Origin: Caldalkalibacillus uzonensis
GTDB lineage: Bacteria; Bacillota; Bacilli; Caldalkalibacillales; Caldalkalibacillaceae
Assembly (NCBI RefSeq): GCF_030814135.1
Contig: NZ_JAUSUQ010000005.1
Location: forward strand, 124,001-188,000
Direction of reading: 5' to 3'
DNA: 64,000 nucleotides
A program made the translations under genes and the position numbers. Shown piece by piece: positions 5,206 through 41,940 of the stretch. Position 1 is the stretch's first letter. Each line of letters begins with the position of its first letter. The notes under the pieces were generated by a model, which was not told the DNA's origin, did no database searches, and saw nothing but the letters and a program-made list of their open reading frames with translations.

Positions 5206-5237
5206 AAAAAAACAAGCAATTAAGGGAGGCAGTGAGA

Positions 5238-5501
5238 ATGAGTAAGAAAAAATTGTCAATTGAGTTTTGTATGATGTGAAATTTTCTGCCTAAAGCCGTC
5301 AGTTTGACGGAGGAATTAATGGAGAACTTTAAGGGCCAAATTGAAAGTATTACCTTGATCCCTTCCGGCGGTGGCGTGTTTGAAGTGGATGTGGAAGGCA
5401 GCCGGGTCTTTTCCAAGAAAGAAACGGACCGTTTCCCTGAAAAAGATGAGGTTAGTAAAATTATTGAGGACAAAAATTTAATGCAACGTGTGGAAGAGTA
5501 G
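5238..5501 (+). CDS. SelW/Rdx-family selenoprotein with in-frame UGA (Sec14)
   Basis: Read from ATG 5238, with GGGAGG 8 bases upstream, the frame reaches TGA at 5277-5279 as codon 14 and then continues in the same frame to TAG at 5499-5501, giving 87 residues. With TGA read as selenocysteine the N-terminus is LSIEFCMMU-NFLPKA, the C-x-x-U redox motif on a beta-strand/loop typical of the SelW/SelT/Rdx thioredoxin-like family. The remainder (ITLIPSGGGVFEVDVEG, FSKKETDRFPEK) carries the family's G-G-x-F-E-V and F-P-E signatures. A perfect hairpin follows the TGA, and the window also encodes SelB and tRNA-Sec. Automated callers will probably truncate it to the part after the TGA. The role is likely thiol redox; the partner is unknown. 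Confidence 0.88.
5296..5310 (+). promoter_or_regulatory. bacterial SECIS-like hairpin
   Basis: CCGTCA-GTT-TGACGG forms a perfect 6-bp stem with a 3-base GTT apical loop inside the coding sequence. The loop begins 22 bases after the TGA Sec codon. Bacterial SECIS elements are known to sit about 16-37 bases downstream of UGA with a small apical loop that starts with G, so both distance and loop fit. Confidence 0.75.
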
Positions 5502-5510
5502 ATACATCTC

Positions 5511-5554
5511 AGACAGGCAAACCCTATTTTTGTCACGGGTTTGTCTATTTTTTT
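5511..5554 (+). terminator. rho-independent terminator after the selenoprotein gene
   Basis: CAAACCC (5518-5524) pairs with GGGTTTG (5537-5543). The stem extends outward with AGA/TCT around a small bulge and is followed by a T-rich tract. Confidence 0.65.
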
Positions 5555-5674: not shown

Positions 5675-5711
5675 AGTTTTGAAAATTAATGCATGTCCAG
5701 GAGGAATGCCT

Positions 5712-6803
5712 GTGCGCGATTTTTTTCCAATCAAGCGCATTGATTATGTGGAGCTGTATGTGAGCAATGCCAAACAGGCTATGCATTATTTTATGAAGGG
5801 GTACGGCTTTAAGCCGGTCGCTTATTCGGGACTAGAGACCAATAACAGAGAGACCACATCCTATGTGTTAAAGCAAAAAAATATCACCTTAGTTGTTTCA
5901 TCAGCTTTGTCTCCTGACCACCCCATCGCAGACTATGTCAAACAGCACGGGGATGGGGTAAAGGATATTGCTTTAACTGTGGACAATGTTGAAAGCGCTT
6001 ACCAAGAGGGGGTCAAACGGGGAGGTATAGGCATTCAGGAGCCACAGACGGTGGAGGACGAGCATGGCACTTATAAGCGGGCAGTGATCGGTACGTATGG
6101 GGACGTGGTGCACTCGCTGATTCAACGGGAACAGTATCAAGGCGTGTTTGCACCCGGTTTTGAACGATATGAGAATGATTATGACGTTCAGTCCAGCGGT
6201 TTATTGGGGATTGATCATATTGTGGGCAATGTGGAACTAAATAAGATGGAGGAATGGGTGCGTTATTACAAACGGGTGTTTGGTTTTGAACAATTGGTTC
6301 ATTTTGATGATGAAGCCATTAGCACCGAGTATTCGGCCTTAATGTCCAAAGTGATGCAAGATGGCTCCGGGCGGATCAAGTTCCCCATTAATGAGCCTGC
6401 TGAAGGTAAACGCAAGTCCCAAATCCAAGAATATCTCGATTTTCACTACGGACCGGGTGTGCAGCATATGGCCCTGACCACCCCCAACATTATTGAGACA
6501 GTGACAAAGCTGAGAGCGGCGGGTATTGATTTTCTGCAGGTGCCGGATACGTATTACGATGATTTGAAAGACAGGGTGGGGGAGATTGATGAAGAAGTGG
6601 AGCAGCTGAGGAAGCTGGGAATTCTGGTAGACCGGGATGAGGAAGGGTATTTGCTGCAGTTGTTTACCAAGCCCATAGTGGACCGGCCCACCTTGTTCAT
6701 TGAGATTATTCAGCGCAAAGGCAGCCGCGGATTTGGTGTGGGCAACTTTAAAGCATTATTTGAGGCCATCGAAAGAGAACAGGCCAAGAGAGGGAACCTA
6801 TAA
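5712..6803 (+). CDS. hpd: 4-hydroxyphenylpyruvate dioxygenase
   Basis: A 363-residue Fe(II)-dependent dioxygenase converting 4-hydroxyphenylpyruvate to homogentisate in tyrosine/phenylalanine breakdown. It has two vicinal-oxygen-chelate domains. The facial triad is visible: His near 169 (GIDHIVG), His near 252 (GVQHMAL) and Glu near 331 (LFIEIIQRKG). Length is normal for the family. I chose GTG 5712 because AGGAGG at 5699-5704 is 7 bases upstream, while the in-frame ATG at 5706 nearly touches it. The stop overlaps the next start as TAATG, so it is translationally coupled to the downstream FAH-fold gene. Confidence 0.93.
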   Translation: MRDFFPIKRIDYVELYVSNAKQAMHYFMKGYGFKPVAYSGLETNNRETTSYVLKQKNITLVVSSALSPDHPIADYVKQHGDGVKDIALTVDNVESAYQEGVKRGGIGIQEPQTVEDEHGTYKRAVIGTYGDVVHSLIQREQYQGVFAPGFERYENDYDVQSSGLLGIDHIVGNVELNKMEEWVRYYKRVFGFEQLVHFDDEAISTEYSALMSKVMQDGSGRIKFPINEPAEGKRKSQIQEYLDFHYGPGVQHMALTTPNIIETVTKLRAAGIDFLQVPDTYYDDLKDRVGEIDEEVEQLRKLGILVDRDEEGYLLQLFTKPIVDRPTLFIEIIQRKGSRGFGVGNFKALFEAIEREQAKRGNL

Positions 6804-7747
6804 TGAAATTTCTGGCTTATGAGCACCCCAGGCTGGCGGAGGTGCGGGCTGGGGTGCTGCTGCATCATCACGTGGTGGATCTCTCTTTTTTGCTTGAGCT
6901 GACTGAGCCTCAAGCAGCGCCCCCGTCTAAACTGCTAGACTATTTGCAAAACTATGAGTCCTGGAAAGACCGTTGTTATGAGGCTTATCGCCTGTTGAGC
7001 AACAAATGGGAGCTGGCTGATGAACAATGGGTCTTTCCTTCTGAGACAGCCAGGCTGAAGGCCCCTTTGCCCAGGCCGGCCAGTGTGCGTGATTTTTACG
7101 CTTTTGAAGCACATGTCAAAACGTGCCGCCAGAAGCGGGGGTTGTCCATGGTGGAGGAATGGTATCAATTTCCGGTGTTCTACTTCAGTAATCACCAGGC
7201 GATTATCGGACCCTATGAGACTGTTTCTTTTCCTCACGAGTCGGCCCGCTGGGACTTTGAGTTGGAAGTGGCCGTGATCATCGGCCGCAAAGGGCGCAAT
7301 ATTCCCAGGTCGGAAGCGTTTCATTATATCTTTGGTTTAACAATGATGAACGACTGGAGCGCCAGGGATATTCAGGCTCAAGAGGTAAAAGTAGGTTTAG
7401 GGCCGGCCAAAGGCAAAGATTTTGCTACCTCACTGGGGCCTTTTGTGGTTACTGCGGAAGAATGGTGGGATAAAAAGGACGGGGAAACACTTGATCTCAC
7501 CATGGAAGCTTACCGCAATGGCCAGCGAATGACCAAGGGGAACTTAAAGGAACTGTATTTTTCCATTCCGCAGCTGATTGAGCGTGCTTCCCAAGATTGT
7601 ACATTGTATCCCGGTGATGTCCTGGGGACAGGTACCGTAGGCGGAGGTTGCCTATTAGAACAGGACAATCCAGAATGGCTCAAGCCGGGCGATGAAATCA
7701 GTCTCAGGGTTGAACGGCTGGGTGTTCTGACCAATACGGTTGGCTGA
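6803..7747 (+). CDS. fumarylacetoacetate hydrolase-family protein
   Basis: A 314-residue FAH-fold enzyme. The C-terminal domain carries the metal-site pattern with DFELEVAVIIG and the family signatures MNDWSARDIQ and GKDFATSLGP. In this operon it most likely cleaves fumarylacetoacetate (or maleylacetoacetate) to fumarate/maleate and acetoacetate, the last homogentisate step. It overlaps hpd by one base and is followed 16 bases later by hmgA. No maleylacetoacetate isomerase gene is adjacent, so direct hydrolysis of maleylacetoacetate or an unlinked isomerase is implied. FAH-superfamily enzymes also include other diketone hydrolases and decarboxylases. Confidence 0.85.
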   Translation: MKFLAYEHPRLAEVRAGVLLHHHVVDLSFLLELTEPQAAPPSKLLDYLQNYESWKDRCYEAYRLLSNKWELADEQWVFPSETARLKAPLPRPASVRDFYAFEAHVKTCRQKRGLSMVEEWYQFPVFYFSNHQAIIGPYETVSFPHESARWDFELEVAVIIGRKGRNIPRSEAFHYIFGLTMMNDWSARDIQAQEVKVGLGPAKGKDFATSLGPFVVTAEEWWDKKDGETLDLTMEAYRNGQRMTKGNLKELYFSIPQLIERASQDCTLYPGDVLGTGTVGGGCLLEQDNPEWLKPGDEISLRVERLGVLTNTVG

Positions 7748-16894: not shown

Positions 16895-16929
16895 TAAAAG
16901 AGCCCCCAACATGATGTGGGGCTCTTTTA
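16895..16929. terminator. bidirectional terminator between the PBP gene and selB
   Basis: A perfect 12-bp stem, TAAAAGAGCCCC / GGGGCTCTTTTA, has A and T runs on its two sides, so it can end transcription from both directions. The selB stop codon lies inside its right arm. Confidence 0.8.
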
Positions 16930-18855
16930 TGATTTCCAGTACCGTTTGTTTTCTTTGCGTGTGGTGTAACCCAATTTATCCAGTGTTTCTAAAAAGGGAA
17001 TCAGGTATTTACGGGTAGTGCCAAATACATCTTTGGCTTCTTGGATCGTGAACGATTCGCCTGTGTTGTTTTTAAGCAGCTGAACAGCCTCCTCAAAGGT
17101 TTCCCGGTTGAGGAAACGGCCGTCATCGAGGGGGACGATATACCCATGGCGCACCAACCATTGTTGCAGGTCCAGCTGCACATCCTGCGGCATGTGCTGG
17201 GGCATCAGTTCCTGCCAAGCTGGCACTTCCAATTGTTTCTCGGCCATAACCGCCTGGGCTTTGTACCAAATGTCTTCATCTTTCGGCCGGAGTACCGACT
17301 CAAAATCAGGTTTGGCCAATGCCTCGTTTTTCAGTTGGACCCGCCCCTCGGCTTCAGCCTGTTGAAGGACCAAATTCCACTGAGCTGTGTTTAACTGCGA
17401 AAAGTATTTGTGTTGTGCTTGCTTGCGGTCCAGTCCTTCCCGGAGCGGATAACGCTGGTGATACTTCTCCAGTTCATCCAACAGATTCTCCCACGTTGTT
17501 TCCCACCAGTCGGTGGTTGTAACTAGAACCAAGGAGCTTGATGGGCTTACGATCTGTTTTAGTCCATGATGAGCCGCATCAGCGATGTCCTGCTCCCAAT
17601 CTGAGAGGGAGATGCCCAGTTGGTGGGTCAGCTCATCTAAGGCGAGGATGCCAGCTTGCTCCAGGATGTGTTTGGCTCTGGCAGCCACGTCTTTATCTTT
17701 TTTGGCAGCAATAAGTTCGATGGTTTGCTGGCCAAAGCGGTGTTTCGTTGCATAAGGATCGATCACCATACCCCCGCCGATGGTAGTCATCGGAGTGGGA
17801 CGACGCAAGACAAAGCGATCTTCAAACAATGTGGTGACCGGTTCATTTAATTCCAGTTGAGCAAAACATGTCTCCCCAGGCTGACATTCGTTACGGTCAA
17901 AGAAAATGATGCGCCCCAGAATATCCGAGGTACCAAGGTGCAGGCGGATGTCACTGCGTTGTTTGATGGTGAAATCCAGATGGTCTAAGATCGTGACCTC
18001 CACATCAATCCGCTGCGTACTTTCAATGCTGCCAGGGGTGGCCAGCACATCACCGCGAGTAAGCTCTTCTCTATCAACGCCGGAAAGGTTGACAGCCACC
18101 CGTTGGCCCGCATAGGCATGTTCCTGAGGAGAGCCATGCACCTGTAACTGACGGACTTTTGCTTTCAGTCCATGAGGAAGAATGTCTAACTCGTCCCCTG
18201 CACTGATTTTTCCCTGATACAATGTGCCTGTCACAATCGTGCCAAACCCTTTTTTGGAAAAGACCCGGTCAATGGGCAGTCTGGCAATGCCCGATGTGGG
18301 CCGGGATGGGAGACTGGCCAAAAGCTGCTCGATCTCCTGTTTTAAGCGGTCAATGCCGCGGCCGCTCAAGCTGTCTACCTCGATGATAGGGCTGCCGTTC
18401 AAGAAGGTGTTCGCTGTTTCTTCCTCTACCTGTTCTTTGACCAGCTCGATAAACTCTTCATCCACCTTGTCTGCCTTTGTTAAAACGATCAATCCGCGGT
18501 TCACGTTCAAGAGATTTAAGATATCTAGGTGTTCTTTTGTTTGCGGCATAACACCTTCATCAGCCGCCACAACAAGCAGCACCATATCAATACCGGCCAC
18601 ACCGGCGACCATTTGCCGGATAAACCGCTCATGCCCAGGCACATCAACTACACTGACGATGTTGCCGTTCGAAAGGGAGAAGGAAGCAAAGCCTAATTCG
18701 ATGGAGATGTTGCGTTCTTTCTCTTCTTTGAGACGGTCCGTATCTTTTCCGGTTAGTGCTTTGGTCAGCGTTGTTTTACCATGATCGATATGACCGGCAA
18801 TACCAATGGTGTAATGGGGTTGTTCATTCCTGTTGTTTATTTCGGTCATGCTCAT
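16927..18855 (-). CDS. selB: selenocysteine-specific elongation factor SelB
   Basis: A 642-residue translation GTPase that delivers Sec-tRNA-Sec to UGA codons marked by a SECIS hairpin. G1 GHIDHGKTT near residue 20, G3 DVPGHERF near 71 and G4 TKAD near 127 are intact, followed by EF-Tu-like domains II/III and about 250 C-terminal residues in winged-helix repeats that bind SECIS RNA. Length is typical. GGAG sits 9 bases before ATG 18855. The upstream hydrolase gene ends 5 bases before it. No selA or selD is in the window. tRNA-Sec lies about 1.1 kb away on the other strand. Confidence 0.95.
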   Translation of the reverse strand: MSMTEINNRNEQPHYTIGIAGHIDHGKTTLTKALTGKDTDRLKEEKERNISIELGFASFSLSNGNIVSVVDVPGHERFIRQMVAGVAGIDMVLLVVAADEGVMPQTKEHLDILNLLNVNRGLIVLTKADKVDEEFIELVKEQVEEETANTFLNGSPIIEVDSLSGRGIDRLKQEIEQLLASLPSRPTSGIARLPIDRVFSKKGFGTIVTGTLYQGKISAGDELDILPHGLKAKVRQLQVHGSPQEHAYAGQRVAVNLSGVDREELTRGDVLATPGSIESTQRIDVEVTILDHLDFTIKQRSDIRLHLGTSDILGRIIFFDRNECQPGETCFAQLELNEPVTTLFEDRFVLRRPTPMTTIGGGMVIDPYATKHRFGQQTIELIAAKKDKDVAARAKHILEQAGILALDELTHQLGISLSDWEQDIADAAHHGLKQIVSPSSSLVLVTTTDWWETTWENLLDELEKYHQRYPLREGLDRKQAQHKYFSQLNTAQWNLVLQQAEAEGRVQLKNEALAKPDFESVLRPKDEDIWYKAQAVMAEKQLEVPAWQELMPQHMPQDVQLDLQQWLVRHGYIVPLDDGRFLNRETFEEAVQLLKNNTGESFTIQEAKDVFGTTRKYLIPFLETLDKLGYTTRKENKRYWKS

Positions 18856-39516: not shown

Positions 39517-39588
39517 CAACATAGAAAGTGAGTACAGCAGAAAAACAGGTCAGCACAGCACAACATATTGTTAAGGGAGAGGATTGTC

Positions 39589-41940
39589 ATGGGTAAAACC
39601 AAACATACAGGACCGATCAAACTGGACACATCCCCAACCCCTTCCCTGTGGGTCAGCAAGGTGCCGATGGGGCTGGGCAAAATCAAACCGAAACATATTC
39701 GGGACACCCTTAAAGTGGTGTGGGAAAACCGGGATAACCTGCCTTATGCCTACAGGATCCTGACCCAAGGCGTGTGCGATGGCTGTGCCTTGGGGGTGGG
39801 GGGGTTATACGACCAGACCCTGACAGGGCCCCATTTGTGCACCACCCGCCTCAATGTATTGCGCTTAAATACCATGCCGGCTTTAAATCCAGCCGTGTTG
39901 GAGGATGTCGAGGCGTTAAGGAAACTGGACAGCACCGAGTTGCGCAAGCTGGGCCGGATCCCGTTTCCCATGTCAAGAAAGCCGGGAGAAAACAAGTTTA
40001 CCCGCCTCAGCTGGGATGAGGCCCTGAACCGCATTGCAACCAAAATCAGAAGCATTGACCCCAAACAGCTGGCCTTTTACCTCACATCCCGCGGCATTAC
40101 CAATGAGGTGTATTACACAGCGACCAAAGTGGCCCGTTTTCTGGGCACCAACAATATTGACAATGCTTCACGCATTTGTCATTCGCCCAGCAAAACGGCC
40201 CTGAAACGTTCCTTGGGCATTGCGGCTTCCAGCTGCAGTTATAAGGATTGGATCGGCACCGATGTGCTGATTTTCTGGGGCTCCGTTCCTTCCAACAACC
40301 AGCCTGTCTCCACCAAGTATATGTATGCGGCCAAGAAGAAGGGGACCAAAATTATCCTCATTAATCCTTACCGTGAACCGTCTATGGAAAATTACTGGAT
40401 TCCCTCCATCCCTGAGAGTGCCTTATTTGGCACTAAATTGGTGGATGATGTCTACCAAGTGAACATTGGCGGGGACATTGCCTTTATGAACGGGGTGATG
40501 AAACACTGGTTTGAAATGGAAGAGCAAGAAACCGGCTCAGCCATTGATCTTGCCTTTGTCCGTGAACATACCAATGGTTTCGAAGAGTTGAAAGCCCATG
40601 TGCTGAAACAAGACTGGGCCTCACTGGAGAAGTCGGCCGGTGTGTCCCGCGAGCGGATGAAAGCGTTCGCCGATCTGTTGGCCAAGGCCAAGTCAGGCGT
40701 TTTTGTGTGGAGCATGGGCCTGACCCAGCACCGCTTTGGCACAGACAACGTCTCCCAAGTGGCGAACCTGGCCATGCTGCGCGGGTTTATCGGGCGTGAA
40801 CATTGCGGTGTCATGCCCATTCGCGGTCACAGCGGCGTCCAAGGAGCAGGTGAGATGGGGGCCGAACCCATGTCACTTCCTGGCGGCGGTCCCTTGGATG
40901 AGGAGAATGTCAAGCGCATGGAAGAGATTTGGGGCTTTGAGATCCCCAGATGGCCTGGCGATATTGTGGGTGTCTCCCTGGAAAATGCCTTGCTGCCCGA
41001 TGGCCATGAGCGCAAAACAAAACTGTTCTACACCAGCGGCGGCAATTTCTTGGAAACCATGCCTGACCCTGATTTTGTGAAGAAATGTCTTGAGGCCGTC
41101 GAGTTACGGGTGCATCAGGATATTATTCTTAATACCTCCACATTGGTGGATGCCAAAGAAGAGGTGATTGTGCTGCCGGCCATGACCCGCTTTGAACAGC
41201 CGGGGGGAAGCACCTCCACTAGCACGGAACGCATGGTTTATTTCAGTCCGGAAATCAAAGGGCCGCGTATTGAAGAGGCCAGAGCCGAATGGCAGATTTA
41301 TATCGACCTTGCTTCCAGGGTATATCCGGAAAAGGCGCACCTGATTCAGTTTAAAGATGCCCAGGCCATCCGGGAGGAGATTGCTAAAGCTAACCCTAAT
41401 TATGACGGCATCCAGCATTTGAAAAAACAAGGAGACTTCTTTCAATGGGGCGGGGCCTGGCTGTGCGAAGACGGGATTTGCCCCACCCCGGACGGGAAAG
41501 GCAATTTGATTCCCATAGAGATTCCGGAGCTGCGCAAAACAGAAGGACAATTCTACGTCACCACCCGGCGGGGCAAGCAATTTAACTCCATGATTTTCAG
41601 TGAAAAAGACCCCGCGACAGGGGGAGAGCGGCACGATATCTTTATCAATCCGGAAGATGCCAAAAAGCTGAATATTGAAGAGGGTGAGGCCATTGTGGTC
41701 TATAACCAGTTTGGCTTCTTACAAGGACGGGCCAAATATGAGGATGTCCGTCCTGGCAATATTCAGGTTTATTGGCCGGAAGGCAATGTGCTCCTGGAAA
41801 AAGGAGTCTATGAAGAATTTGCGGGTGTGCCCGAATACAATGTGGCTGCCGTGGTGGAAAAAGCAGACACGTACTATGCCCATAAAGATACCCGTTATGT
41901 AGAGAAGCGCATTGAGGATCTGGAAACGGAAGTGAGTTAA
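39589..41940 (+). CDS. FdhF/YdeP-family molybdopterin oxidoreductase
   Basis: A 783-residue Mo-bisMGD enzyme related to the formate dehydrogenase H catalytic chain. An N-terminal cysteine region (GVCDGCALG) precedes the molybdopterin domains. SRICHSPSKTALKRSLG near 196 marks the metal-site region, with Cys, not Sec. GQTQHRFG-like MGLTQHRFGTDNVSQVANLAM and RGHSGVQGAGEMG follow, and the C-terminal dinucleotide-binding domain has TRRGKQFNSMIFSEKDPATGGERHDIFINPEDA. YdeP-family members have roles in acid resistance in E. coli, and their substrate is uncertain. mobA, fdhD and mobB nearby supply its cofactor. Confidence 0.88.
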   Translation: MGKTKHTGPIKLDTSPTPSLWVSKVPMGLGKIKPKHIRDTLKVVWENRDNLPYAYRILTQGVCDGCALGVGGLYDQTLTGPHLCTTRLNVLRLNTMPALNPAVLEDVEALRKLDSTELRKLGRIPFPMSRKPGENKFTRLSWDEALNRIATKIRSIDPKQLAFYLTSRGITNEVYYTATKVARFLGTNNIDNASRICHSPSKTALKRSLGIAASSCSYKDWIGTDVLIFWGSVPSNNQPVSTKYMYAAKKKGTKIILINPYREPSMENYWIPSIPESALFGTKLVDDVYQVNIGGDIAFMNGVMKHWFEMEEQETGSAIDLAFVREHTNGFEELKAHVLKQDWASLEKSAGVSRERMKAFADLLAKAKSGVFVWSMGLTQHRFGTDNVSQVANLAMLRGFIGREHCGVMPIRGHSGVQGAGEMGAEPMSLPGGGPLDEENVKRMEEIWGFEIPRWPGDIVGVSLENALLPDGHERKTKLFYTSGGNFLETMPDPDFVKKCLEAVELRVHQDIILNTSTLVDAKEEVIVLPAMTRFEQPGGSTSTSTERMVYFSPEIKGPRIEEARAEWQIYIDLASRVYPEKAHLIQFKDAQAIREEIAKANPNYDGIQHLKKQGDFFQWGGAWLCEDGICPTPDGKGNLIPIEIPELRKTEGQFYVTTRRGKQFNSMIFSEKDPATGGERHDIFINPEDAKKLNIEEGEAIVVYNQFGFLQGRAKYEDVRPGNIQVYWPEGNVLLEKGVYEEFAGVPEYNVAAVVEKADTYYAHKDTRYVEKRIEDLETEVS

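Follow-up and report, generated by a model that had tools for sequence, protein, structure and literature searches.

Comparative evidence for a SelW-type selenoprotein gene with a bacterial SECIS hairpin in Caldalkalibacillus uzonensis

In a 64,000-nucleotide stretch of the Caldalkalibacillus uzonensis genome (G000:C5:124001-188000; here called the window), we found a selW-like gene of the Rdx family that contains an in-frame TGA, and we conclude that this codon is almost certainly decoded as selenocysteine (Sec) in a SelB-dependent, hairpin-guided manner. Under this explanation, SelB would bring Sec-tRNA to a ribosome paused at the UGA, and a hairpin 3' of the codon would position SelB so that the UGA is read as Sec. 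The outcome would be an 87-residue thioredoxin-fold protein with the redox motif C11-M-M-U14. That such read-through takes place in the cell is something we infer from conservation among related sequences. An earlier note on this DNA had proposed a UGA-encoded SelW/Rdx-type selenoprotein with a SECIS element, and our results support that overall reading. The features of the locus are collected in Table 1.

Table 1. Coordinates of selW, its associated signals, and the Sec-decoding genes within the window
Feature	Position	Strand	Evidence
selW-like selenoprotein gene (Rdx family)	5238..5501	+	Pfam PF10262, NF041051, TIGR02174, PDB 2fa8, SelW fold
Ribosome binding site AGGGAGG	5223..5229	+	Sequence; GGAGG-type sites before the same start in many homologues
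TGA as selenocysteine (U14; forms the CxxU redox motif with C11)	5277..5279	+	TGA or Cys in homologues, selA co-occurrence
bSECIS apical hairpin CCGTCA-GTT-TGACGG	5296..5310	+	Covariation over 56 loci, synonymous-codon null, local fold
Probable intrinsic terminator immediately 3' of selW (9-bp stem, 12-nt loop, T run)	5516..5553	+	Fold
selB, selenocysteine-specific elongation factor	16927..18855	-	TIGR00475, 380.7 bits vs cut-off 242.25
tRNA-Sec (selC), UCA anticodon	19908..20000	+	ARAGORN; Rfam RF01852, 73.9 bits

Gene structure and predicted fold

The selW gene opens with an ATG (5238-5240) that has a good ribosome binding site 8 nt upstream, and its frame is interrupted solely by the TGA at codon 14, as had been described from the sequence. 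From there the frame is open to a TAG at 5499-5501. With the TGA read, the product is 87 amino acids long (MSKKKLSIEFCMMU NFLPKAV...RVEE), with Sec as residue 14 in the motif C-M-M-U. The terminator that follows the gene (fold of -16.4 kcal/mol, z -3.27) was missed by a consensus scan limited to loops of 3-8. Because this terminator-like hairpin comes after the stop codon, selW is probably its own, monocistronic transcription unit. Directly downstream on the same strand, and set off from selW by the hairpin, genes for a 4-hydroxyphenylpyruvate dioxygenase and a fumarylacetoacetate-hydrolase-family protein (5697-7747) make up a tyrosine degradation pair.

The claim that the frame continues past the TGA as an Rdx-family protein was confirmed by a family match that runs across the codon. 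Pfam PF10262 (Rdx) aligned its whole domain (profile positions 2-74) to product residues 6-78, with an E value of 8.7e-22 and a score of 77.6 bits (cut-off, 22.6). The NCBIfam SelT/SelW/SelH models NF041051 and TIGR02174 were also above cut-off for the read-through product, which additionally matched solved SelW-family structures such as PDB 2fa8 (4.9e-13); these NCBIfam and PDB matches also extend across the TGA. An AlphaFold2 model built from 17 homologues, with C put in place of Sec, had a pLDDT of 88.3. It placed a strand (residues 4-11) before the redox motif and a helix (17-30) after it, and both motif positions (11 and 14) are invariant as C or Sec in the 17-sequence alignment. The best PDB matches of this model in Foldseek were all SelW related (2fa8, 2obk, 2oka, 2p0g, and 3dex), with TM-scores of 0.80-0.87 by query length and of 0.84-0.87 against the 2fa8 SelW-family chains; mouse SelW ranked lower. 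Given the strand before the motif, the helix after it, and the matches to SelW structures, both halves split by the TGA are predicted to form one fold, and the modeled product has the SelW thioredoxin-like fold. Judging by its motif and fold, and in line with the rest of the family, the product would be a small cytosolic thiol/selenol redox protein acting through a reversible C11-U14 selenenylsulfide.

Distribution of the TGA form and of the Sec machinery

We examined a class-wide draw of 399 genomes and a separate set of 101 relatives. The Rdx family was present in 55 of the 399 genomes as 59 genes, 56 with the TGA and 3 without it. A search of genome contigs for related loci returned one distant relative only, in a Gemmatimonadales MAG (L001), which itself has the TGA. 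When the codon at the Sec position was read from the DNA for all 59 genes plus the Gemmatimonadales locus, it was TGA in 57 and Cys in 3, so that every homologue found fits the expectation of U or C at position 14. The TGA form occurred in 53 genomes, all 53 of which have selA over cut-off (compared with 85 of 399 overall), and was absent from all 314 genomes that lack selA. The Fisher P value for the TGA form with selA is about 6e-44 before correction for relatedness and is indicative only, as the homologues are phylogenetically related and both P and the cell counts overstate independence. Among the 101 relatives, 19 carry an Rdx gene and all 19 have the TGA form, one of them with an extra Cys copy. 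SelA and SelB were over cut-off in an identical 35 of these relatives, including all 19 Rdx genomes. Rfam matches to tRNA-Sec were left out of the co-occurrence analysis because tRNA-Ser-like genes cross the cut-off.

The three Cys copies of the class-wide draw occur in different settings: G124 (L057) lacks selA, G289 (L067) has selA but no Sec copy, and in G005 (L021) the Cys copy accompanies a Sec copy. The 399-genome sample is in line with the survey of 2006, according to which organisms that use Sec have few or no Cys homologues of SelW-like proteins (PMC1794560).

SelA, SelB, tRNA-Sec, and SelD are all encoded in the C. uzonensis genome. The selB and tRNA-Sec genes had been placed near selW, and curated models recognized both there (Table 1); selA falls outside the window, about 81 kb away from selW on the contig that carries both. 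In the two closest relatives that have selW, this gene, selB, and tRNA-Sec likewise fit within 20 kb. Further selenoproteins were sought by family, for SelD and formate dehydrogenase only, and both genes, which lie outside the window, contain an in-frame TGA: SelD (L022; G000:C9:182097-183026) at the usual position, KGGUGCKI, and formate dehydrogenase (L026; G000:C8:161298-162044) in RIUHSSTV. Therefore, this genome has at least three selenoprotein genes, selW included. Within the window, a formate-dehydrogenase-alpha-like molybdopterin protein (39568-41940) has Cys in ASRICHSP and no TGA.

The SECIS hairpin and selection around the TGA

The perfect 6-bp hairpin with a 3-nt GUU loop was found as the earlier note had described it; its loop starts 23 nt after the TGA, with 22 nt in between. 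Its local fold is -9.1 kcal/mol over 49 nt, and the bare 15-nt hairpin of a sister locus with the identical sequence (L003) gave -6.5. Published bSECIS rules give a loop of 3-9 nt, a stem of 4-16 bp, a G in the first two loop bases, a spacing of 16-37 nt, and an MFE of <= -7.5 (PMC13188914); the hairpin conforms to these with the 49-nt fold taken as the MFE. In a single sequence, such a hairpin is weak evidence because 2.0% of the TGA trinucleotides across the window have a perfect, bSECIS-like hairpin of 6 bp behind them and the chance of this exact hairpin given the protein sequence is ~4.5%. Its stability, taken alone, is not unusual (z -0.39 to +0.27).

A single-sequence finder of stabilizing hairpins chose the wrong partners in several loci, so the loci were compared in a fixed register. 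That register (+17..+22 / +26..+31) is common to 56 Sec loci, which are all the members aligning without an indel; in one Sec locus, L063, an indel shifts it. All 56 have C-G as the outermost stem pair and G at the start of the loop; the four positions inside the outermost pair are always paired, and 13 loci lack the innermost pair. At successive stem positions the pair types are CG/TA, GC/AT, TA/CG/TG, and CG/GC/AT/TA, with compensatory changes at three positions (TA/CG/TG; CG/GC/AT/TA; and CG/TA and GC/AT changing together). The mean number of pairs was 5.68 of 6, compared with 3.97 under synonymous recoding (maximum of 4.28 in 500 trials), and the stem was perfect in 75% of loci, compared with 3.4%. 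The Cys copies retain only 0, 2, and 3 of the 6 pairs, and the hairpin is lost in all three. On these alignments we identify the hairpin as a bacterial SECIS with a covarying stem, and it is the family comparison that is decisive.

The UGA could instead be suppressed in another way, by near-cognate Trp or Cys read-through or under a changed code, to give a product with Trp or Cys. Some UGA read-through is common in bacteria, and the sequence of the locus alone is compatible with it. However, the TGA form is limited to genomes with Sec machinery, a covarying SECIS that is lost in the Cys copies would be needless for such read-through, and homologues show Cys, not Trp, opposite the TGA. We consider this alternative highly improbable and favor decoding of the UGA as Sec.

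By the earlier note, a lack of conserved sequence before the TGA would have refuted the selenoprotein reading; this sequence proved to be conserved. When the two species of the genus are compared, the 13 codons that precede the TGA differ by 5 synonymous and 0 nonsynonymous changes and the downstream codons by 26 synonymous and 6 nonsynonymous changes, a pattern that indicates purifying selection both before and after the codon. This selection bears on whether the locus might yield two products, a peptide of 13 residues and, from a start of its own, an Rdx fragment encoded downstream. The TGA does formally divide the frame, and low-level termination at a Sec UGA is usual, but the downstream part would be without the first strand (4-11) and the redox C11 of the fold and the residues before the TGA are themselves selected, which leaves two products very hard to credit. 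A pseudogene or sequencing error, in which a mutation put the TGA into a Cys-type Rdx gene that is now decaying, has the interrupted frame as the sole point in its favor and a negligible probability, being refuted by a TGA common to 56/59 family members from many genera and families and by the purifying selection on both sides. All three alternatives were thus considered and rejected in favor of a Sec codon. With the protein conserved on both sides of the TGA, the TGA itself conserved, and the stem covarying, chance is removed as an explanation for the hairpin.

Known SelW proteins and variants in the class

SelW-like proteins (PF10262, CxxU) are on record as a bacterial selenoprotein family (PMC13188914, PMC9312934, PMC1794560, PMC2398784; first surveys, PMC1088965 and PMC1794560), which together with SelD is the most widespread in ocean surveys. 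The selW gene described here is a firmly supported further member of this established family and no surprise. It has the same family assignment (PF10262/TIGR02174), size, CxxU motif, Sec position, and bSECIS just 3' of the TGA as other bacterial SelW-like selenoproteins and shows no difference of substance from them; it is another sequence, from a lineage with few listed. The rarity of selenoproteins claimed in the earlier note holds for the 2006 survey, which has three in Bacillales (PMC1794560, Table 2), but is overstated for our sample, in which selA is present in roughly a fifth of the genomes.

The closest solved structure is that of Agrobacterium Atu0228 (PDB 2fa8; 34% identity, rmsd of 1.0), a Cys-type Rdx protein with CxxC where the product here has CxxU. 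Mouse selenoprotein W (PDB 2npb) has the thioredoxin-like fold and the CxxU motif in common with the product but just 25% identity to it in the structural alignment. The eukaryotic SECIS is located in the 3' UTR, unlike the bSECIS of bacterial selW. The Campylobacter-type SelTWH model NF041051, from a different phylum and named for where it was built, scored the product at 91.7 bits (cut-off, 88). Because this NCBIfam '(seleno)protein' model is over its cut-off, current annotation pipelines may well call selW in full, contrary to the view that standard gene callers would record a truncated fragment.

Two SelW-like genes on the minus strand, L029 (G169:C12:7800-9000) and L030 (G148:C30:400-1500), have two in-frame TGAs, U-T-G-U (UxxU), with an ATG start and an intact downstream frame. 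Their SECIS hairpin is intact, 22 and 31 nt past the two TGAs, a suitable spacing for both. The two genomes belong to one other genus, and each has an ordinary CxxU copy as well. A UxxU SelW is known in amphioxus and Ostreococcus (PMC7539508); we found no literature report of a bacterial one, and the bacterial catalogue consulted gives CxxU with one Sec only.

In 13 of the 53 genomes with the TGA form (G083, G095, G192, G232, G255, G300, G322, G330, G339, G344, G348, G353, and G389), selA lies directly 3' of selW on the same strand, with 49-689 nt between the domain matches. The window differs in this respect, its selW being far from selA. Where it occurs, the adjacency suggests that SelW and Sec synthesis are functionally connected. 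Given also the near absence of the Cys form and the near confinement of Rdx to selA genomes, the SelW-like protein of this class might be tied to selenium metabolism itself, for instance by carrying selenium or by sensing the Sec supply for selA, a proposal that we regard as speculative and rather unlikely. The UxxU SelW and the selW-selA arrangement are more interesting than the selW of the window.

With 56 loci in one register and three natural Cys revertants, the covarying SECIS set offers clean material for building a lineage-specific SECIS model, and the revertants, which have lost the hairpin, are usable as controls. For this group of Gram-positive bacteria, the locus adds a firmly supported SelW-type selenoprotein. 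Across the class, Rdx is kept essentially as the Sec form only, and only where the Sec machinery exists.
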